Shown in pieces: positions 8,413-57,827 of a stretch of DNA of 64,000 bases. This DNA comes from Fimbriimonas ginsengisoli Gsoil 348. GTDB taxonomy: Bacteria > Armatimonadota > Fimbriimonadia > Fimbriimonadales > Fimbriimonadaceae. The position numbers and the translations under genes were made by a program. The notes below the pieces were generated by a model. It did no database searches. It was not told the DNA's origin and saw only the letters and a program-made list of their open reading frames with translations. The stretch is from contig NZ_CP007139.1 in the NCBI RefSeq assembly GCF_000724625.1, positions 4,526,001 to 4,590,000 of the forward strand, given 5' to 3'. Position 1 is the first letter of the stretch, and each line of letters starts with the position of its first letter.

Positions 8413-8689
8413 CCGTCCGGAGCCCCCTCTCCCTCCTTCGGATGTACGTGCCGAACAAGGGAGAGGGGGTTGGGGTGAGGGAGTCCGGAAGGACCGCTGC
8501 TCTCCAAAGCGGCCTCCCCGTTCCCCGTGTACCTTCGGTACACGGCATCGGCGAGGGCGCGGACGCTACGTCCGAAGGACGTGTAGCCGCAGGTTGGCTC
8601 GTACCTGCTCCCGCTGTACCGAAGGTACAGCGGAATCATCGGCGAGGGCGCCGACGCTACGGCCGAACCCTAATCGGCCAAAGTAGAAC
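8413..8689. repeat. Intergenic palindromic repeat cluster
   Basis: No gene is seen here. A hairpin with a 12-bp stem (CCCCCTCTCCCT 8423-8434 with its complement 8458-8469) begins a few bases after the MFS stop and would suit a terminator. Downstream are modules found elsewhere in the window: GGCATCGGCGAGGGCG near 8543, the GTAGCCGCAGGTTGG module near 8584, a short GTACCTTCGGTAC palindrome near 8530, and ATCATCGGCGAGGGCG near 8635. Related copies occur at 20449-20749. Confidence 0.75.
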
Positions 8690-20448: not shown

Positions 20449-20680
20449 GTAGCATCGGCTCCCAGCCGATGATCGGAGATCGAAGCTCCAGCCACAGATT
20501 GGCCTCCCCTACGTCCGAAGGACGTGTAGCCGCAGGTTGGCTCGTACCTGCGCGAGAGCCTTCCAAAGATCGCAATGCGAGGACGTATTTGAAACGTCCT
20601 CGCGCAGGTACGAGCCAACCTGCGGCTACAACGCTGCGCGTTAGGTACATCGGATCATCGGCGAGGACGCCGACGCTACA
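20449..20680. repeat. Palindromic repeat cluster with a perfect 31-bp inverted repeat
   Basis: Starts with the GTAGCATCGGCTCCCAGCC hairpin (20449-20470). Arms at 20526-20556 and 20599-20629 are perfect 31-base reverse complements separated by 42 bases, the latter itself holding a GAGGACG / CGTCCTC stem. An ATCATCGGCGAGGACGCC module ends the block (near 20651). No gene is supported here. Confidence 0.8.
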
Positions 20681-20702
20681 GGCAGACTCCCTCACCCCCA
20701 AC

Positions 20703-20749
20703 CCCCTCTCCCTCCTTCGGCACGTACATCCGAAGGAGGGAGAGGGGGC
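20703..20749 (-). terminator. Perfect 19-bp hairpin after the ABC permease gene
   Basis: Arms at 20703-20721 and 20731-20749 are fully complementary around a 9-base loop. It begins 7 bases beyond the permease stop codon at 20757. There is no T tract, so termination would not be of the classical intrinsic kind; it belongs to the same repeat family as 8423-8469. Confidence 0.6.
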
Positions 20750-20756
20750 TCCGGAG

Positions 20757-23734: not shown

Positions 23735-23850
23735 GATCCCTCCAGACGCGCCGTCTGGCAGGGTCCCACCATCTACTTGCGCAAACTCCCCGATCCTCTT
23801 TGCGTCTTCGCGCCTTTGCGTGACGCTGATCCGGTCAGACGAACCCCCAA
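23735..23850. repeat. Dispersed repeats upstream of the adaptor gene
   Basis: Contains the CCAGACG-CGC-CGTCTGG hairpin (23742-23758), also found at 43730-43754, and a segment at 23796-23824 that recurs at 50192-50221 next to the RAYT-like gene. No gene is seen in the gap. Confidence 0.65.
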
Positions 23851-26242: not shown

Positions 26243-27007
26243 GTGGCGCGAAAACCGACGCTTAGCCCGAGCAAAATCACCACTTACCTTGCCTGCCCGG
26301 TCAAGTACCGCTGGACCTACGTGGACGATCGCGGCAAGTGGTACCTGCGCTCCAAAAGCTACTACTCCTTTGGCAGCACGCTCCACCGGGTGCTCGAACG
26401 GTTCCACGACACTGGCGATGCCGGGGTGAACACAACCGAAGAGGTCATGGCCGCCTATGAAGAGAGCTGGATCGACGCCGGATACGCCTCCGCTGAGGAA
26501 CTGGCCGAGGCGTACGGCGAGGGGCGCGAGATCCTCGAGCGTCACGTCCAGCAAGCAACCGCCCAGCCGCGTGAGTCCAAAACGATCTTCGTCGAGCGCC
26601 AGTTTCGTCACGACATGGGCGAGTTCGCGTTGCTGGGCCGCGTCGACCGGGTCGACGAATATCCGGACGGAACGCTCGAGATCGTCGATTACAAATCCGG
26701 ACGCGAATCGGTGGAAGTCGAAGACGTGGCGACCGACATCGCCATGGCCTGCTACCAGCTTCTCCTCCGCCACAAGTTCCCCGGCGTCCCCATCCGCGCC
26801 CGGATCATCGCCTTACGAACCGGCCACTCGGCCGCCGCCTCGATGACCGACGAGGAAGCCGCCGACTTCGAGCAGACGATCCTACAGTTGGGCCGCGAGA
26901 TCCTCTCCGAGGAGTACCACGAGCTAACCCCCGTCTTCAAACCCCTGTGCCTCCACTGCGACTTCCTCCCCCTCTGCCGCAAACACCCAGAATTCGCCGA
27001 ACTCTAA
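26243..27007 (+). CDS. PD-(D/E)XK nuclease with Fe-S cysteine cage (Cas4/AddB C-terminal-like)
   Basis: 254 residues from GTG 26243. H48 (TLHRVLE), D135 (LGRVDRVD) and D149-Y-K151 form the nuclease core. C18 (TYLACPVKY) together with C236, C239 and C245 (CLHCDFLPLC) form the one-plus-three cysteine cage that holds a 4Fe-4S cluster in Cas4 and AddB/RecB-type nucleases. No CRISPR array, cas gene or helicase partner is nearby, so a stand-alone repair exonuclease is more likely than a Cas4. TAGACT immediately precedes the start codon and may be a -10 giving a leaderless mRNA. Confidence 0.88.
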   Translation: MARKPTLSPSKITTYLACPVKYRWTYVDDRGKWYLRSKSYYSFGSTLHRVLERFHDTGDAGVNTTEEVMAAYEESWIDAGYASAEELAEAYGEGREILERHVQQATAQPRESKTIFVERQFRHDMGEFALLGRVDRVDEYPDGTLEIVDYKSGRESVEVEDVATDIAMACYQLLLRHKFPGVPIRARIIALRTGHSAAASMTDEEAADFEQTILQLGREILSEEYHELTPVFKPLCLHCDFLPLCRKHPEFAEL

Positions 27008-27008
27008 C

Positions 27009-27165
27009 GTGGCACTGGCTTCCAGCCCGTGGGTCCCAAGGGCATCCTGCCCTTGGCCGTTTTCTCACGACCATCCTGGTCGTGAGCGTTCATCGGCTAG
27101 GAGCCGATGCTACGTTCACACGACCAGGATGGTCGTGATACACACGGGCTGGAAGCCCGTGCCAC
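27009..27165. repeat. 157-bp nested-palindrome element, copy 1
   Basis: Terminal inverted repeats at 27009-27031 and 27143-27165 match at 22 of 23 positions. Inside are three hairpins: CACGACCATCCTGGTCGTG, a CATCGGCT-AG-GAGCCGATG-like stem and CACGACCAGGATGGTCGTG. It fills the gap between two convergent genes, starting 1 base after the TAA of the nuclease gene and ending 2 bases before the stop of the M16 gene. No ORF. Confidence 0.9.
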
Positions 27166-35124: not shown

Positions 35125-35273
35125 CTACGCCGCAGGCGTGTAGCCGGCACCTACGTGTGCCGCCCGGCGTACCGAACGTAAGCCTACGCCGCAGGCGTGT
35201 AGCCGGCACCTACGCGTGCCGTCCGGCGTACCGAGCGTAAGCCGGATCATCGGCGAGGACGCCGATGCTACGG
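35125..35273. repeat. Two tandem 59-bp repeats plus a hairpin module
   Basis: Units 35125-35183 and 35184-35242 differ at only a few positions, and each contains CTACGCCGCAGGCGTGTAG. A CGGCGAGGACGCCGATG hairpin follows at about 35249-35265. The first unit begins directly after the TAA of the acyl-CoA dehydrogenase gene. Confidence 0.8.
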
Positions 35274-35342: not shown

Positions 35343-38195
35343 ATGCACACCGCGCGTCTAATAGTGGCTTCGGCCCTACTCGTCCTGCCGGGACTTATCC
35401 TGGCCCAAAAGAAGCCGCTGGACCACAGTGTGTACGATGGCTGGAAGTCGATCCGATCGGCGTCCGTTAGCCACGACGGGAAGTGGGTTCTATTCGTTAT
35501 CGCCCCTCAAGAAGGGGATGCCGTCGCCACCATCCGAAGCGTCGCCGACGGGCACACGATCACGATTCCGCGAGCTTCGCAGATCCAGTTTACGAACGAC
35601 TCGAAGCACGTCGTCGCGCTAGTTATTCCGCCCTTCGCCGACACCCGCAAAGCGCGTCGCGACAAAGTGAAGCCGGAGGACATGCCGAAGAACGCCTTGG
35701 AAATCGTGGACCTCGGGGCCGGCCAAACCAAGACGATCGACCGCGTTACTAACTACCAGTTGGCCGAAGAAGATTCGAATTTTCTGCTCTACAAACCCGA
35801 ACCGCCGAAGGAAGCCGCCAAGCCTCCGACCACGCCTCCGGGCAAGAAAGATGAGGAAGAAGACCAGCGGCGCGGCGGTGGGGCCCGAGCGGGAGGCGCG
35901 CAACGCCCGGCGCCCGCCGCCGGCGGCTCCGCCGCGGGCGCTCCGCCAGCGAAGAAGGCGGGCGACTCGTATGTACTACTCGATCTCGGAACGGGGAAAG
36001 AAGAGACGATCAACGACGTTGCGAGCGCGAGATTCAACAAATTCGGCAACGTGATGGCCTACGCGGTCGCCAGCAAAGACGGCAAGACCGACGGAATCGT
36101 GTTGTACGACCTCCGCACGAAGAAGCGGCAAAACGTCGTCACGGCCCCCGGCAAATACCCCCGTATCGCCCTTTCCGACGACGCTTCTCTGCTTGCTTTT
36201 ACCACCGACAAGGACGATCAAAAGGCGAAGAAGCCGCTTCTCAGCCTCTACCTTTACGATCCTAAGAAGAACGTAACGAAGGCGGTCGGCGCGGACTCCA
36301 TGCCGAAGGATTGGACCTACAACGCCAACGGCGCCATCGACTTTAGCGACAAGAACACCCGCCTCATCTACCGGACCTCGCCCAAGCCGCTCCCCGATCC
36401 CGAAGAGAAGCCGGATGACGAGAAGGTGTCCGTCGACATCTGGAACTGGCAAGACGCGCGCCTGCAGCCGCAGCAACTTTTGATGGCTCAGTCGGAGCGA
36501 GACCGCGGCTACACCGCGATCTACGACATCGCGAGCGGAAAATCGATCCAGGTCGCCGACCGTGATCTACCCTCGGTCACCATCAGCGACAAAGGCGATG
36601 GCCGGTACGGACTCGCCAGCGACGAGCGCCCGTACGAGCGCGAAGGCTCCTGGAACCCCGGGAACGAAGACACTTACGTCATCGACCTGAAAACCGGCGC
36701 GCACACTCAGATCTCCAAACGATTCCGCGGCGGGGCGCAGCTTTCGCCCTCCGGACGGTACGTGGCGATCTACGATGCCGGGCCTAAAGCTTGGTTCGCA
36801 CTGGAGCCGGCCACCGGCAGGCGGGTCAGTCTGAGCAAAGGGATCACATCCCCGCTTGCCGACGAGCTCGACGATCATCCGGACGATCCGGCCCCTTACG
36901 GCCTGATCGGTTGGACGAAAGGGGACAGCCGCGCCATCATCGCCGACCGCTACGACCTTTGGGCTTGCGATCCTTCCGGCCAGGCCGCACCGGTTCGGCT
37001 AACGTCCGGTCGCGAATACACCACCCGTTACCGCCCGGTGAGCCTCGATCCGGATGCGGTGTATCTCGACACCGACGACATGCTTCTGGACGCGTTCAAC
37101 GAAGACACGAAGCAAAACGGATTGGCGAGGCTCCAAAATGGCCACCTGAACAAGATGTTCATGGCCGAGAAAAGCTTCCTCGGCTACCAAAAGGCGAAAA
37201 ACGCCGACACGCTGATCTACACGCGGCAGGACTTCGTGGAGTATCCCGACATTTGGCTTTCGAACACCCGCTTCGAAGCCCCTCAGAAGATTTCGGACGC
37301 TAATCCACAGCAGAAGGAATACAACTGGGGCAAAGCCGAGCTCGTCCGCTGGACCAGCCTGGACGGCATCCCTCTCCAAGGGATCCTGATTAAGCCGGAG
37401 AACTTCGACTACGGTAAGAAGTACCCAATGATCACCTACTTCTACGAGCGGAACAGCGACGAGCTGTACCGCTACAAGGCGCCCGCGCCGAGCGCGAGTA
37501 CGATCAATTGGCCGCTTTTCGCCAGCAACGGGTACTGCATCTTCATCCCGGATATCCCTTACAAGATCGGCTATCCGGGCGAGAGTGCGGTAAACGGCAT
37601 CCTGCCCGGCGTCCAGGCGATCCTGGGCCGCGGCTACATCGATCCGAAGCGAATGGGGATTCAGGGACAAAGCTGGGGCGGCTACCAGGTCGCTTACCTA
37701 GTCACCCGAACGAATATGTTCGCGGCGGCGGAGGCGGGAGCGCCCGTCGGCGATATGTTCTCCGCCTATGGCGGCATTCGATACGGCGCCGGCATCGTTC
37801 GGCAGTTCCAATACGAACACCAGCAGTCGCGCATCGGCGGCACGCCATGGGACGCGACCCTGAAGTACATCGAGAACTCCCCCATTTTCTGGGTGGACAA
37901 AGTCGAAACGCCTCTCATGATCATGTCGAACGACAAGGACGGATCGGTCCCCCACACCCAGGGAATCGAACTGTTCACCGCTCTTCGGCGGCTGAATAAG
38001 CCGTCGTGGCTGGTCGTGTACAACGGAGAGGACCACAACCTGATGGAGCGCAAGAACCGGAAGGACCTCTCGATCCGGCTAAGTCAATTCTTCGATCACT
38101 ACCTAAAGGGCGCGCCGATGCCCGTCTGGATGTCCCAAGGCGTCCCTGCCGTGGACAAGGGGCGTACGATGGGTACGGAGCTAGGCGGCAACTAA
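35343..38195 (+). CDS. Exported S9-family prolyl oligopeptidase-like peptidase
   Basis: 950 residues with a signal peptide (MHTARLIVASALLVLPGLILAQ). The N-terminal beta-propeller (30-690) is interrupted by a low-complexity Pro/Ala/Gly segment near 155-203. The alpha/beta-hydrolase domain has the triad S777 (GQSWGGY), D866 (SNDKDGSVPH) and H898 (GEDHNLM). The family cuts peptides after proline or small residues. TTGACA is found at 35310-35315 but no good -10. The product is larger than usual S9 enzymes. Confidence 0.9.
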   Translation: MHTARLIVASALLVLPGLILAQKKPLDHSVYDGWKSIRSASVSHDGKWVLFVIAPQEGDAVATIRSVADGHTITIPRASQIQFTNDSKHVVALVIPPFADTRKARRDKVKPEDMPKNALEIVDLGAGQTKTIDRVTNYQLAEEDSNFLLYKPEPPKEAAKPPTTPPGKKDEEEDQRRGGGARAGGAQRPAPAAGGSAAGAPPAKKAGDSYVLLDLGTGKEETINDVASARFNKFGNVMAYAVASKDGKTDGIVLYDLRTKKRQNVVTAPGKYPRIALSDDASLLAFTTDKDDQKAKKPLLSLYLYDPKKNVTKAVGADSMPKDWTYNANGAIDFSDKNTRLIYRTSPKPLPDPEEKPDDEKVSVDIWNWQDARLQPQQLLMAQSERDRGYTAIYDIASGKSIQVADRDLPSVTISDKGDGRYGLASDERPYEREGSWNPGNEDTYVIDLKTGAHTQISKRFRGGAQLSPSGRYVAIYDAGPKAWFALEPATGRRVSLSKGITSPLADELDDHPDDPAPYGLIGWTKGDSRAIIADRYDLWACDPSGQAAPVRLTSGREYTTRYRPVSLDPDAVYLDTDDMLLDAFNEDTKQNGLARLQNGHLNKMFMAEKSFLGYQKAKNADTLIYTRQDFVEYPDIWLSNTRFEAPQKISDANPQQKEYNWGKAELVRWTSLDGIPLQGILIKPENFDYGKKYPMITYFYERNSDELYRYKAPAPSASTINWPLFASNGYCIFIPDIPYKIGYPGESAVNGILPGVQAILGRGYIDPKRMGIQGQSWGGYQVAYLVTRTNMFAAAEAGAPVGDMFSAYGGIRYGAGIVRQFQYEHQQSRIGGTPWDATLKYIENSPIFWVDKVETPLMIMSNDKDGSVPHTQGIELFTALRRLNKPSWLVVYNGEDHNLMERKNRKDLSIRLSQFFDHYLKGAPMPVWMSQGVPAVDKGRTMGTELGGN

Positions 38196-38196
38196 C

Positions 38197-38352
38197 GTGG
38201 CACGGGCTTCTAGCCCGTGGGTTCCAAGGGCATCCTGCACTTGGCGTTCTTTCACGACCAAGATGGTCGTGAAGGTTCATCGGCTGGGAGCCGATGCTAC
38301 GTTCGCACGACCAGGATGGTCGTGATACACACGGGCTGGAAGCCCGTGCCAC
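38197..38352. repeat. Nested-palindrome element, copy 2
   Basis: 156 bases, aligning end to end with copy 1 (27009-27165) with a few scattered differences. The terminal repeats are 38197-38219 and 38330-38352. It starts 1 base after the TAA of the S9 gene and ends 9 bases before the trmFO start codon, so trmFO's promoter must lie within or before it. Confidence 0.9.
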
Positions 38353-38361
38353 CATAGGGGC

Positions 38362-39732
38362 ATGATCACAGTCGTTGGCGGAGGGTTCGCGGGGACCGAG
38401 GCGGCCTGGGCGGCGGCGGAGCGCGGGTGTAAGGTGCGCCTCTACGAGATGCGGCCGAAACGGCCGACGGGGGCGCACCAGACCGAGTACCTGGCCGAGC
38501 TCGTTTGCTCCAATTCCTTCAAATCTCGCCTCGCCACCTCCCCGGCGGGGCAGCTAAAGGCGGAGATGGTCGCCCTTGGTTCCCTCGTCATTCCAACCGG
38601 CGAGGAGCACTCCGTTCCTGGCGGAGAAGCACTCTGCGTCGATCGCGACGCCTTCGCTGCGGCGATCACCCGGCGGATTTCCGAACACCCGAATATCGAC
38701 GTGGTTCGGGACGAGTTCTCTCCCGACATGGCCCAGAACGCGCTTGCTCAGGGTCCGCTAATCCTCGCAACCGGTCCCCTGACGAGCCGTCCGCTGGCGG
38801 AGTGGCTGGCTCAGCTCACGGGGCAGCAGCACCTCTACTTTTACGACGCGGTCAGCCCTACCGTCGATGCCTCGACGATCGATACGTCGATTGCTTTCGC
38901 GCAGAGCCGATACGATAAAGGGGGAGACGATTACCTGAACTGCCCCTTCGACAAGGAGCAATACTACGCGTTCGTCGAGGCGCTCAAGACGGCGGAGCGG
39001 GCTCTTCCCCACGGGGTGGCGGCCGAAGACGAGACGTTGGAAAAGATCAAGTACTTTGCCGGCTGTACGCCGATCGAGGCGATCGCGGACGCCGGCGATC
39101 GGTCGCTGGCGTTCGGAAACTTCAAACCGGTCGGACTTAGCGACCCCCGAACCGGCCGCCGTCCCTATGCCGCGATCCAGCTCCGCCCCGAGAATCGCGA
39201 CCGAAGCCTTTACTCGCTCGTGGCGTGCCAAAACCGCCTTAAGTGGGGAGAGCAGAAGCGGGTCTTCCGAATGGTGCCCGGCCTGGAAAACGCCGAGTTC
39301 GTGCGCTTTGGAGTAATCCACCGGAACACGTACATCGAATCCCCCAAGGTGCTCACGCCTTGGCTGGAAATGAACGAAGTTCCCGGTCTGTTCATCGCCG
39401 GCCAGCTCACCGGGGTCGAAGGGTACGTGGAATCGGCGGCGATGGGAATCTACGCAGGGATCTCGGCCGCCCGTCAGGAGCAGGGGCTAGATCCCATCGT
39501 CCCGCCCCGCGCCTCCGCCTATGGGTCTCTCGTCTCTCACCTCCAGGACCAGACCCCGCGCGAGTTCGCGCCGATGAACATCAACTGGGGCCTCTTCCCA
39601 GAGCCGGAGATCGAGACGCGAGACAAGGGAGTGAAGCGAGAAGCGAAACTGAAAGCTGCGCAAGAGAGCTTCTCCGAATGGCGAATCCGACTGGAGAACG
39701 AGCTTGATCAACCCGCCAGCTCCGCCGCCTGA
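38362..39732 (+). CDS. trmFO: tRNA (uracil-54-C5)-methyltransferase, folate/FAD-dependent (TrmFO)
   Basis: 456 residues. The FAD-binding GGGFAGTEAAW is at the N-terminus, followed by LYEMRPKRPTGAHQT and ELVCSNSFKS, all diagnostic for TrmFO. CTPIEA near residue 236 holds the second conserved cysteine, and FIAGQLTGVEGYVESAAMG is the late FAD block. TrmFO uses methylene-tetrahydrofolate and FADH2 to make ribothymidine at position 54 of tRNA. No other tRNA-modification gene is adjacent except the SPOUT methyltransferase 1 kb downstream. Confidence 0.96.
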   Translation: MITVVGGGFAGTEAAWAAAERGCKVRLYEMRPKRPTGAHQTEYLAELVCSNSFKSRLATSPAGQLKAEMVALGSLVIPTGEEHSVPGGEALCVDRDAFAAAITRRISEHPNIDVVRDEFSPDMAQNALAQGPLILATGPLTSRPLAEWLAQLTGQQHLYFYDAVSPTVDASTIDTSIAFAQSRYDKGGDDYLNCPFDKEQYYAFVEALKTAERALPHGVAAEDETLEKIKYFAGCTPIEAIADAGDRSLAFGNFKPVGLSDPRTGRRPYAAIQLRPENRDRSLYSLVACQNRLKWGEQKRVFRMVPGLENAEFVRFGVIHRNTYIESPKVLTPWLEMNEVPGLFIAGQLTGVEGYVESAAMGIYAGISAARQEQGLDPIVPPRASAYGSLVSHLQDQTPREFAPMNINWGLFPEPEIETRDKGVKREAKLKAAQESFSEWRIRLENELDQPASSAA

Positions 39733-49606: not shown

Positions 49607-49711
49607 GTGGCACGGTGCTTCCAGCCCGTGTGTATCACGACCATCCTGGTCGTGTGAGACCGCCAAGGGCTGGAAGCCCCTGGGACTCACTGGCAAAGAT
49701 GCCAGTGCCAC
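49607..49711. repeat. Nested-palindrome element, shortened variant (copy 3)
   Basis: 105 bases. The ends carry GTGGCACGGTGCTTCCAGCC (49607-49626) and the complement of GTGGCACTGGCATC (49698-49711); CACGACCATCCTGGTCGTG lies inside. Read on the minus strand it begins 1 base after the TAA of the RAYT-like gene, with the same TAACGTGGCAC junction as copies 1 and 2. Its other end faces the dnaK promoter region. Confidence 0.85.
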
Positions 49712-49712
49712 G

Positions 49713-50183
49713 TTACTCGGGCGCGTTCGCAACCCAGAGCGAGTCGTATTGTTCCGGATCTTCCGCTAGCTCGTTGGCCACGGGCGATTCGAAGATTCGC
49801 TCCCAGAACGCCTGGAACTCGTCGTCATCGCGAAGAATGCGGTCGTAGCTCTCGTTGTAAAAGGGTGGGAACCGTTCTTCGGTTCGCTTAATGATGTCGC
49901 GGCCAACCTTCGACTTCACCTTCTCCACAACGTCGCTCAGCTCGTAAGGCACCCCGGTCGGCGCCTCGCGCACCGTGAAGATCAGCTCCGTAACTTCCGG
50001 AAGGACGCACACGATCAGCAGATCCCACCGGCGTCCATCCGGCTTGATCAGGCCGCGCAACAGCATCCGCCGCTCAAACTCGTCGAGCGACCGCCGATGC
50101 TTGAACGTCACGTAGTAGTTGACGTCGTCCGCCCGCCAATGCGGCAGGCGCCCCCGCCAAATACTAAAATTCTGCCAGGCCAT
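49713..50183 (-). CDS. RAYT-like (REP-associated tyrosine transposase) protein with degenerate HUH motif
   Basis: 156 residues. The layout follows the Y1/RAYT family: RLPHWRADDVNYYVTFK at the start, a central strand, ELSDVVEKVKSKVGRDI, then ESYDRILRDDDEF (family YDRIIR, with the putative nucleophile Y113), and the NPVxAGL-like SPVANELAEDPEQYDSLWVA. The segment that should read MPNHVHLL is here VLPEVTELIF (residues 60-69), so both metal-binding histidines are lost. Known RAYTs mobilise REP palindromes; this one is probably inactive for cleavage or has been domesticated to bind palindromes. It sits directly against element copy 3. Confidence 0.75.
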   Translation of the reverse strand: MAWQNFSIWRGRLPHWRADDVNYYVTFKHRRSLDEFERRMLLRGLIKPDGRRWDLLIVCVLPEVTELIFTVREAPTGVPYELSDVVEKVKSKVGRDIIKRTEERFPPFYNESYDRILRDDDEFQAFWERIFESPVANELAEDPEQYDSLWVANAPE

Positions 50184-50259
50184 GGACCGAACCTCTTAGC
50201 GTCTTCGCGCCTTTGCGTGACACTCATCTCCCCTTCACTAGGAGCTAGTCAAATGTCTA

Positions 50260-54397: not shown

Positions 54398-56113
54398 ATG
54401 GTCGAAGAGGTCCAGAACGAATACGATGTCGCTATTATCGGTGGGGGTCCGGCCGGTGCCACGGCGGGCACGCTTCTAAAGCGATACAACCCCGGCCTTC
54501 GCGTCGCCATCTTCGAGCGCGAGGTCTTCCCTCGCGATCACATCGGCGAGAGTCTGCTTCCACCGATCTCGGCGATCCTCGACGAGATGGGGTGCTGGGA
54601 TAAGGTCGAGTCGGCCAACTTCCCAATCAAGCTCGGCGCCACTTATCGATGGGGGCGTAATCCCGAGCTCTGGGATTTCGACTTCGTACCGGTCGAGCAG
54701 TTTCGGGAGGAGCCCAGGCCGGCCAAGTTTGCCGGACAACGCACCGCGACCTCGTTTCAGGTGGATCGATCCGTGTACGACAAGATCCTGCTGGATCACG
54801 CGGCGGAAATGGGATGCGACGTTCATCAAGCGGCCAAAGTGGCTAAGGTCCACCGCGAAGGGGACCGGGTCACCGCCCTGGAGCTGGAAGGCGGACAATC
54901 CGTAACGGCTCGATACTATATCGACGCCTCCGGAAACAGCGGCATCCTGCGCCGCGCCATGGGCATCGAATGCGCCTATCACCCGGCGTTGCAGAACATC
55001 GCGATCTGGGATTACTGGCAAAACGCCGAGTGGGCGGTCAAGATCGGCGTGGGCGGTACGCGCATCCAAGTGCGCAGCCTGCCCTACGGCTGGATCTGGT
55101 TCATCCCGCTCGGTCCCACCCGCACCAGCATCGGGCTTGTCGTGCCGGTCTCCTACAGTAAGCAATCCGGAAAGAAGCCCGCCGAGCTCTATGCCCAGGC
55201 ACTCCAAGACGAACCCGCCCTCGCCAAGCTTCTCGCCAACGCGAAGTCCGAGGATCTGCTGAAAAGCACTCGCGATTGGTCGTTCTTGGCGGAAAGGAGC
55301 GTCGGGGAGAACTGGTTTCTCATCGGTGAAAGCGCAGGCTTCGCCGATCCGATCCTATCCGCCGGCGTCACCATGGCGCACATCGCCGGCCAGCAAGTCG
55401 CCTATACCGTCAACGAGATCGAGCACCGGGGAGACGCCTCTTGGCTGAAAGAGCAGTTCAGCCTCCGCCAACGCCACCGGATCAATACGCATATCCGCTT
55501 TGGCGACTACTGGTACACCGCTAACTCGCAATTGAAAGAGCTTAAGGAATTCACTACCCAGTTGGCCGAGGCGAGCGGGCTCGAGCTTACGGCCGAGAAA
55601 GCCTGGGATTGGATCGCGCGGGGCGGATTCATCGATGAGGACTTGGCCGTCGGGATCGGCGGATTCGGCCTCGCCTCTCTAAAGGAGTCCCGGCACTATT
55701 TGGCCGACCTCCAGTTCGACTCTCCCCTTGAAAAGAACAACGTCTTTCAGCTCGACCTGGAGGGCGCCGGAACGAAGGACCGGGCCAGCTACCTGGAAGG
55801 CCGCGTCGGCAAGACCAAGTGCTACGTCCGCGGCAATCGCGTCCTTCCCATCCGGGGAGCGTTCGAGCTGCTCGTACAGGTTCTTCAGCATGAGACTCGG
55901 CTCCAGAACATTCTCCAGGCCATCATGGCCGTCGCGCAGCAACGCTCCTCCGACCGTGCGTTCATCCAAAATGTATTGCCTCAGGTGGCCCCTGCTCTAG
56001 AAGGGATGGTTAACGACGGCTGGGTGCGCGCGTCGTACGATCCACGCGAGCCGCTGGCGCAGCTCAATTCAGGCTTTCCCGGCTTTCATCGCCACCAGGA
56101 GAGCGCCAGTTGA
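54398..56113 (+). CDS. Flavin-dependent halogenase-like protein 1
   Basis: 571 residues. FAD-binding GGGPAG at 15-20, FPRDHIGESLLPP at 44-56, and DASGNSGILRR. Two halogenase-defining motifs are present: WxWxIP (232-237, GWIWFIP) and FxxPxxSxG (F315, P318, S321, G323). K78 in FPIKLGA fits the catalytic lysine that carries the haloamine in tryptophan halogenases. The C-terminal 200 residues are unlike single-domain tryptophan halogenases and resemble the longer carrier-protein-type (CmlS/PltA) group. No NRPS, PKS or flavin reductase is in the window. A paralogue follows 22 bases later. Confidence 0.88.
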   Translation: MVEEVQNEYDVAIIGGGPAGATAGTLLKRYNPGLRVAIFEREVFPRDHIGESLLPPISAILDEMGCWDKVESANFPIKLGATYRWGRNPELWDFDFVPVEQFREEPRPAKFAGQRTATSFQVDRSVYDKILLDHAAEMGCDVHQAAKVAKVHREGDRVTALELEGGQSVTARYYIDASGNSGILRRAMGIECAYHPALQNIAIWDYWQNAEWAVKIGVGGTRIQVRSLPYGWIWFIPLGPTRTSIGLVVPVSYSKQSGKKPAELYAQALQDEPALAKLLANAKSEDLLKSTRDWSFLAERSVGENWFLIGESAGFADPILSAGVTMAHIAGQQVAYTVNEIEHRGDASWLKEQFSLRQRHRINTHIRFGDYWYTANSQLKELKEFTTQLAEASGLELTAEKAWDWIARGGFIDEDLAVGIGGFGLASLKESRHYLADLQFDSPLEKNNVFQLDLEGAGTKDRASYLEGRVGKTKCYVRGNRVLPIRGAFELLVQVLQHETRLQNILQAIMAVAQQRSSDRAFIQNVLPQVAPALEGMVNDGWVRASYDPREPLAQLNSGFPGFHRHQESAS

Positions 56114-56135
56114 TCCGAAAGATGGAAATCCGCCA

Positions 56136-57827
56136 ATGAACTACGATGTCGCCATCATTGGAGGCGGTCCCGCCGGGAGCACCGTCGGCTGCCTGCTCAA
56201 GAAGTACAATCCGGCGCTGAAGGTCGCGATCTTGGAGCGGGAAACCTTCCCCCGAGACCACATCGGCGAGAGCCTCCTCCCGCCGATCTCGCCGATCTTG
56301 ATCGAGATGGGGTGCTGGGACAAGGTGGAAGCCGCGAATTTTCCGATCAAGATCGGCGCGACCCTGCGATGGGGCAAAACCCCGGAACTCTGGAATTTCG
56401 AGTTCTTCCCTGCCGACGAGTTCAAGGACGAGCCGCGACCCGCCAAGTTCGAGGGTCAGCGCCGCCTCACCGCATTCCAAGTCGACCGCGCTATCTACGA
56501 CGAGATCCTGCTAAACCACTGCGCCGAACTCGGCTGCGATGTCCGGCAAGGAACGAAGGTCGCCAAAGTGAACCGGGAGGGTGACCGGGTGACCGGGCTG
56601 GAATTGGAGGACGGCGAAGTCGTTACCGCGCGTCATTACGTGGATGCCTCCGGCAATAGCGGCATTCTTCGCCGAGCCATGAACGTCGCTTGCGACTATC
56701 CCTCCACGCTCCGGAACATCGCGATCTGGGACTACTGGCAGAACGCCGACTGGGCGGTCCGCATCGGCGTAGGGGCGACCCGCATTCAGGTTCGCAGCCT
56801 CGGTTACGGGTGGCTGTGGTTCATTCCCCTTGGCCCTACCCGCACCAGTATCGGGCTGGTCATTCCGGCCGAGTACTTCAAATCCTTGGGCAAGAAACCG
56901 CAGGAGGTCTATCGCCAGGCCCTCCAGGAAGAAGAGGCGCTTTCCGCTCTCCTCGCGAATGCCACCAGCGAAGATCGGCTGGAGACGACCCGCGACTGGT
57001 CGTTCCTGGCCGAGCGTCAATCTGGCGAAAACTGGTTCTTGGTGGGCGAGAGCGGTGGCTTTGCCGATCCGATCCTCTCGGCAGGCGTCACGATGGCGCA
57101 GATTGGCGCCCAGCAGTGCGCCTATACCATCTTGGAAATCGACCGGGGCGAGCTAAAGCGAGAGTGGCTGTGTGAGCAATTCGACCGCCGGCAGATCCGC
57201 CGCATCAAAACGCACATTCGCTTCGGCGACTATTGGTATACGGCCAACTCGCAATTCTCCGACCTCAAGGATTTCACCGCGGAGCTGGCGCGCGCGAACG
57301 GCCTCGAACTCTCGCCGGATAAGGCCTGGCAATGGCTGGCGCAAGGGGGCTTCATCGATGAGGACCTCACGGTCGGCGCCGGCGGATTCAACCTTCTCAG
57401 CATTCGGTCCTCCACCGAATTTCTAACCGAGCTCGATGCCGGTTCGCCGCTGGAAGAAAACAACATTCTAAGGCTCGACTTGCAAGGGGCGACCTGGCAG
57501 GATGGCGCGGTTTACCACGAAGGCCGGGTGATAAAGGCCGGCAGCTACACCCGCGATGGCAAGGTGCTGCCGCTCTGGGGCCACTTCGACGTGCTCGTCA
57601 AGCTCCTGCAGCGAGAATCCCGATTGCCGAGCATCGTGCAAATGATGCAACTGATGGCGCAGCAGCGCGCGCACGATCCGGTCGCGATGACGTTCCTCGG
57701 CATGTTGCCCGAGGCGATGGAGGGGATGGTGCGGGACGGATGGATCCGTGCGTCTTACGACCCCAAACTCCCGCGCGCAACGCTAGTCCAACATGGAACC
57801 GGATTTCACCGGAATCGCGACACGTAG
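56136..57827 (+). CDS. Flavin-dependent halogenase-like protein 2
   Basis: 563 residues. The tandem paralogue of the preceding gene, alike along its whole length (DHIGESLLPP, IWDYWQNA, RIQVRSL, SPLEENN are shared). It keeps GGGPAG (9-14), K72, WxWxIP (226-231) and FxxPxxSxG (F309 to G317). The 22-base gap and shared orientation imply one operon. Divergence in the C-terminal domains suggests distinct substrates or a heterodimer; whether both are active cannot be told. Confidence 0.88.
   Translation: MNYDVAIIGGGPAGSTVGCLLKKYNPALKVAILERETFPRDHIGESLLPPISPILIEMGCWDKVEAANFPIKIGATLRWGKTPELWNFEFFPADEFKDEPRPAKFEGQRRLTAFQVDRAIYDEILLNHCAELGCDVRQGTKVAKVNREGDRVTGLELEDGEVVTARHYVDASGNSGILRRAMNVACDYPSTLRNIAIWDYWQNADWAVRIGVGATRIQVRSLGYGWLWFIPLGPTRTSIGLVIPAEYFKSLGKKPQEVYRQALQEEEALSALLANATSEDRLETTRDWSFLAERQSGENWFLVGESGGFADPILSAGVTMAQIGAQQCAYTILEIDRGELKREWLCEQFDRRQIRRIKTHIRFGDYWYTANSQFSDLKDFTAELARANGLELSPDKAWQWLAQGGFIDEDLTVGAGGFNLLSIRSSTEFLTELDAGSPLEENNILRLDLQGATWQDGAVYHEGRVIKAGSYTRDGKVLPLWGHFDVLVKLLQRESRLPSIVQMMQLMAQQRAHDPVAMTFLGMLPEAMEGMVRDGWIRASYDPKLPRATLVQHGTGFHRNRDT

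Follow-up and report, generated by a model that had tools for sequence, protein, structure and literature searches.

A new family of REP-type composite hairpin elements beside host stop codons in Fimbriimonas ginsengisoli, and an adjoining RAYT-like gene without catalytic motifs

Introduction

The closest described systems are the GTAG-tagged REPs, including GTGG-footed variants, which two reports (PMC3733652; PMC6006769) present as an unpaired GT[A/G]G foot with a hairpin, arranged in inverted pairs, and located mostly in tandem or convergent gaps, close behind stop codons. The first of these reports further places copies shortly downstream of genes and in the convergent gaps of other REP-rich genomes, and describes GTAG ends that often give TAG stops in other species (PMC3733652). 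REPINs and BIMEs (PMC3116915) are non-autonomous and consist of an inverted REP pair around an intervening stretch. Regarding the enzyme, a Marinomonas RAYT studied in vitro was shown to select its cleavage site under guidance from the foot, and exchanging GTAG for GTGG permitted cleavage at CC (PMC8266576).

The repeat described here, from Fimbriimonas ginsengisoli Gsoil 348, measures 105-157 bp and is composed of several covarying hairpins that carry GT[A/G]G feet; it is a repeat of the REP/REPIN type and constitutes a new family of a known kind. With the GTAG-tagged REPs it shares the unpaired foot, the hairpin, the inverted pairs, the preference for tandem and convergent gaps close behind stops, and GTAG ends that give TAG stops. 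Unlike the published examples, as far as those reports describe them, it occurs in another genome, and its composites, 105 and 157 bp long, combine GTGG with GTAG feet, a separation drawn from their description. Like REPINs and BIMEs it is a non-autonomous, inverted REP pair around an intervening stretch, but its interior is built of further hairpins, and no excision event has been seen. In all likelihood the element is a non-autonomous REP composite of the REPIN/BIME type, moved by a RAYT and placed next to a stop codon that belongs to the host, with a preference for an A-(A/C)-C flank.

The element and its three copies in the window

The window, a stretch of 64,000 nucleotides of the F. ginsengisoli chromosome (NZ_CP007139.1, positions 4,526,001 to 4,590,000), contains three exact matches to TAACGTGGCAC, at 27005-27015 (+), 38193-38203 (+), and 49705-49715 (-), while 0.56 matches with up to one mismatch are expected from shuffled sequence. 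The TAA within each match is the stop codon of an open, intact reading frame, and the three genes are unrelated, so that the observation from which this work started, a TAA-C-GTGGCAC junction at the stops of three unrelated genes, is borne out. The GTGG following TAAC represents the first bases of the element. The full-length copy that the sequence-only reading had placed at 38193-38352 is genuine, but the element proper excludes the TAA and covers 38197-38352, or 156 bp; copy 3 is a shorter variant of 105 bp rather than a full-length copy (Table 1). The left edge of copy 1 lies 1 nt past the TAA, and its right foot lies 2 nt past the TAG of a gene on the opposite strand.

Table 1. Positions, in the window, of the element copies, the genes around them, and the hairpins of copy 2
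Feature	Position	Strand	Description
Copy 1	27009..27165	+	157-bp element between two convergent genes
Copy 2	38197..38352	+	156-bp composite hairpin element, GTGGCAC...GTGCCAC
Copy 3	49607..49711	-	105-bp shorter variant, 1 nt past the TAA of the RAYT-like gene
TAA stop of the S9 peptidase gene	38193..38195	+	Host sequence, outside the element; orthologues share the end residue without the element
PD-(D/E)XK nuclease gene, upstream of copy 1	26243..27007	+	PF12705, E 1.8e-37
S9 peptidase gene, upstream of copy 2	35343..38195	+	PF00326, E 1.3e-24
trmFO gene, downstream of copy 2	38362..39732	+	NF003739 and TIGR00137, over cut-off
RAYT-derived gene without HUH and Tyr, at copy 3	49713..50183	-	Single-copy core gene of the family
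Hairpin 1 of copy 2	38201..38219	+	97.0% of cells paired; one pair shows double changes; preceded by the GTGG foot, 38197-38200
Hairpin 2 of copy 2	38224..38244	+	97.4% paired; A-U to G-C in 8 of 29 copies at one pair
Hairpin 3 of copy 2	38253..38271	+	89.4% paired
Hairpin 4 of copy 2	38278..38296	-	97.0% paired; internal REP with GTAG foot, 38297-38300, on the minus strand
Hairpin 5 of copy 2	38306..38324	-	99.0% paired
Hairpin 6 of copy 2	38330..38348	-	96.1% paired; minus-strand GTGG foot, 38349-38352

The architecture of the element was analyzed in an alignment of 29 oriented copies (164 columns, 87% mean identity), from which L025 was left out as truncated and which omits long places without an assigned locus. 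Across the six local hairpins 96.2% of cells are paired, and changes on both sides of a pair occur in 22 cells, compared with a mean of 6.3 in shuffles. These double-changed cells are located in hairpins 1, 2, 3, and 6, and the stems include G-U variants; the number of pairs showing a change on both sides is not outstanding, being 5 against 3.8 in shuffles, with 117 of 500 shuffles reaching 5. Pairing of the whole element as one terminal inverted repeat found no support, its covariation being equal to that of shuffles and one of its pairs being broken in 23 of the 29 copies. Several hairpins carry GGA-like loops, for which a CsrA-type reading is only a thought.

Spread of the family and a RAYT transposon with the same tips

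When copy 2 was used as a query, about 40 long places were recovered in the organism's own genome, a single 5.23-Mb contig. A loose pattern consisting of GTGGCA and a hairpin matched 261 times in the same genome, compared with 3 times for the reversed control. Among 19 other genomes of the genus this pattern yielded 0 to 6 matches (0 to 4 for their own controls), while a few more distant genomes of the order gave 25, 59, and 74, indicating that expansion of the repeat has been patchy. Sister GTAG hairpins also stand alone in the genome. For counts of individual feet, a sample of 1.264 Mb of the 5.23 Mb was used, consisting of three genome stretches together with the window, in which genes were called by a small home-made codon-usage script trained on 27 window frames. 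The sample contains 116 feet with a good stem, 70 of them GTGG and 46 GTAG; the left foot of copy 1 is missing from this number because its stem failed the matching rule. The feet fall into 78 clusters, 25 of which are intergenic with outward feet at both ends, while 48 consist of a single foot.

A unit of 739 bp elsewhere in the genome (2235582-2236320) carries GTGG feet at both ends, inverted towards each other, and encodes a RAYT in which both the HxH motif (VMPNHVHAIV) and the Tyr are intact. Its last 47-48 bp are mostly 87-94% identical to the elements, and 26 bp at its other end mostly 92-96%, with both matches reaching the tip. The unit thus resembles a REPtron, or RAYT transposon, in having a RAYT between inverted GTGG REPs; unlike the usual REPtron, it sits in frame inside an alcohol dehydrogenase frame. 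At this place (L046:889-2568, minus strand) the resulting single open frame encodes 559 residues with the domains ADH_N, Y1_Tnp, and ADH_zinc_N. The 105-157 bp elements are very probably derivatives of the RAYT transposon that arose by internal deletion and would be moved in trans.

We infer both transposition by the RAYT of 2235704-2236069 and selection behind the crowding of copies at stops. Specifically, an active RAYT, for which this HUH protein is the candidate, would recognize the foot and hairpin on single-stranded DNA and move the element in trans, and the element would join behind a short flank similar to A-(A/C)-C. Copies landing in genes or promoters would mostly be lost, and survivors would gather between genes, chiefly behind stops and between convergent genes. 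A TAAC beside a copy would then consist of a host TAA and a C that suits the flank preference. The candidate for the cognate RAYT rests on one locus, at which the RAYT is flanked by REPs of the element type, with both ends matched.

Placement among genes

The 78 clusters are distributed over 39 tandem, 27 convergent, and 6 divergent gaps, with the remaining 6 inside called genes, while the intergenic regions of the sample comprise 494 tandem, 157 convergent, and 177 divergent gaps. Clusters are therefore commoner behind genes and between convergent genes, and rarer between divergent genes. Twelve of the 25 two-ended elements have a stop no more than 5 nt away, and none is that close to a start. 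When elements were placed at random in these gaps, a mean of 8.7 came to lie near a stop, and 12 or more did so in 33 of 2000 simulations, which suggests that most of the crowding on the stop side is enforced by short gaps, leaving a small excess.

This distribution, together with the covarying stems and their G-U variants, is also what might be observed if the hairpins were retained beside stops by a function in RNA, such as protection of the mRNA 3' end, attenuation, or termination, and not by a bias of insertion. Such an explanation is nevertheless unlikely, as the genes are retained in relatives of the same genus that lack the elements, random placement within a given gap is exceeded only slightly, and a search of window positions 26900-50400 matched no Rfam family at gathering thresholds.

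TAA frequency and the flank preference

A second explanation, proposed by the sequence-only reading, is that the element specifically targets TAA stops. In its favor are the three-of-three junction in the window and the finding that TAA is the stop at 17 of the 29 feet located 0-5 nt past a stop, compared with 298 of 964 called genes (31%; p 0.0018). This tilt is not produced by the window, since 14 of 25 such feet carry TAA when the window is excluded (p 0.008). However, 38 of 65 outermost GTGG feet, like 21 of 39 outermost GTAG feet, have no called stop in the 8 nt before them, and those adjacent to stops follow TAG and TGA as well. Moreover, TAAC stands directly before only 7 of the 116 feet, and before 5 of 107 outside the window, 2 of these 5 being at no called stop. 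The enrichment check over genomic copies thus confirms a mild excess of TAA but no TAA rule, and the three-of-three junction does not extend to the genome.

What the feet do display is a preference in the bases preceding them. Among the outermost feet, position -1 is C in 62 of 104, position -2 is A or C in 88 of 104, and position -3 is A in 49 of 104. The 59 outermost feet with no stop in the preceding 8 nt follow the same trend (C at -1 in 37, A or C at -2 in 49, A at -3 in 27), demonstrating that the flank preference is not a mere by-product of stop codons. Since A-A-C is satisfied by TAA followed by C, but not by TAG or TGA followed by C, the TAA tilt fits a short A-(A/C)-C flank preference, which accounts for it. 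Two of the three positions recur at 26 feet from four related genomes, with C at -1 in 18 of 26 and A at -3 in 16 of 26, while A or C at -2 is found in only 9 of 26. None of these 26 feet lies 0-5 nt past a called stop, although this is weak evidence because the codon table of F. ginsengisoli was used for the related genomes. Taken together, these data make specific targeting of TAA very unlikely; the striking junction is ordinary REP biology, and it yields a testable rule for the target flank.

Ownership of the stop codon

The sequence-only reading had proposed, alternatively, that the end of the element itself supplies the stop codon, such that insertion would define where genes end. In the GTGG copies the TAA lies outside the element. 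Comparison of gene ends across 19 nuclease loci and 15 peptidase loci revealed that orthologues without the element end at the same residue: nuclease orthologues with TGA in G016 and G017, and S9 peptidase orthologues with TAG in G017 and G014 and with TAA in G013, where a C follows the TAA although the element is absent. The remaining loci either extend beyond the last aligned residue by up to 16 residues or are unreadable to the end. At copy 3, orthologues of the RAYT-like gene terminate at about the same position and use various stops. The best proteins of the same genus for the flanked genes are about 48-73% identical, and among these relatives no empty site was seen at the level of bases. 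Agreement of the end residue in the absence of the element means that the stop belongs to the gene at copies 1 and 2; the TAA there is the host's own, and the element neither carries nor defines a stop. Accordingly, both observations named beforehand as telling against the two proposals have been made, namely feet away from stops and orthologues with the same end lacking the element, one of them (G013) with TAA.

Supply of a stop by the element does occur in one form, as the sister GTAG feet provide a TAG stop in 8 of 46 cases, in likeness to what the report on other species describes (PMC3733652). Four of these eight genes were compared with orthologues of the same genus, and three comparisons were informative. 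The end of gene 473922 (473922-475445) differs by at most one residue from that of 18 of 19 loci, and the locus that departs is a distant hit. Gene 2140474 extends about one residue beyond four close orthologues, nine other loci (39-41%) being paralogue-like and not counted. Compared with each of 11 loci, gene 2190241 (2190241-2191554) stops at the matching residue or extends one further. The fourth, gene 684362, is uninformative because its own protein runs about 95 residues past the orthologue alignment. In all three informative genes, then, the protein ends within about a residue of orthologues that lack the element, which suggests that GTAG insertions swapped stop for stop at nearly the same codon. 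The proposal of stop supply consequently survives for the GTAG feet, but with ends shifted by no more than about a residue, and as an account of the GTGG junctions, with insertion defining gene ends, it is hardly credible. In the genes tested, repeats at stops, even those that supply the stop, have left protein ends in place. As a separate observation, 8 GTAG feet share the single offset of -4, compared with 7 across all six offsets after stops.

The RAYT-like gene beside copy 3

The gene adjoining copy 3 encodes a protein with the predicted fold of a RAYT, or IS200 transposase. Its structural model (mean pLDDT 86.3) has as its best match the E. coli TnpA-REP structure (PDB 4er8; E 7.9e-07, Z 14.3, rmsd 3.1 over 138 residues). 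While the predicted fold is that of the E. coli protein, the HUH and Y115 positions are not conserved; in the alignment VTE stands opposite HMH, and Arg129 opposite the Tyr (Y115 by the printed numbering). That copy 3 and this gene represent a REPtron that spread the family, as the 1-nt distance between a REP and a gene with this fold might suggest, was dropped as next to impossible, given that the protein lacks HxH and Tyr, that the REP lies on one side of the gene only in the genome of F. ginsengisoli and not on both, and that the gene is near-universal in the family (40 of 41 genomes, nearly always once; all of the 36 good genomes), most of its carriers lacking the repeat. Copy 3 is best seen as one more insertion on the stop side of a gene.

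A scan of named genomes recovered 80 loci, comprising 57 close relatives and 23 distant loci from many phyla (L236-L258). The close relatives are nearly all labelled Armatimonadota or Fimbriimonadia; L185, labelled an archaeon, is probably a misbinned contig. The HxH motif is missing in 56 of 56 close relatives in which that region is present, and the Tyr of the YI..NP motif in all 56 that include its column, while both are present in 23 of 23 distant loci. Within the 5-kb flanks of the 57 loci, P-II was found at 30, a histidine kinase at 27, and dnaK at 13, counts that are limited by contig ends. A phmmer search with one distant RAYT as the query gave no useful match.

These findings can be read as the domestication of a RAYT in an ancestor of the Fimbriimonadia-like Armatimonadota, a reading whose prospects we judge to be evenly balanced. 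On it, the catalytic motifs were lost and the hairpin-binding fold was kept, and the gene passed into vertical inheritance as a core gene in single copy, frequently near P-II and dnaK, with a product that would bind nucleic-acid hairpins for the host in genomes with REPs and in those without them. Hairpin binding by the window protein is itself a guess, prompted by the modelled fold. Work on domestication has reportedly been carried out by Bertels and colleagues (2017). A literature search covering few subscription papers returned no paper on a RAYT without HUH or on REPs in Fimbriimonas. If domestication did take place, a transposase-derived, family-wide protein without catalytic residues would be a clean bacterial case of recruitment into a non-catalytic role. 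At this locus, a conserved RAYT without catalytic motifs is both more interesting and more novel than the TAA junction.

Other repeats in the window

A 42-nt direct repeat with 90% identity occurs at 23790-23831 and 50187-50228, the latter immediately upstream of the RAYT-like gene. A further family of hairpin repeats (CTACGTCCGAAGGACGTGTAGCC...) is present at 8416-8608 and 20509-20755, with two inverted copies of 60 nt and two direct copies of 43 nt. Two tandem units of 59 nt, 95% identical, lie at 35125-35242, and at 54398-57827 there are two adjoining paralogous genes of 571 and 563 residues, stretches of whose DNA are about 72-76% identical.
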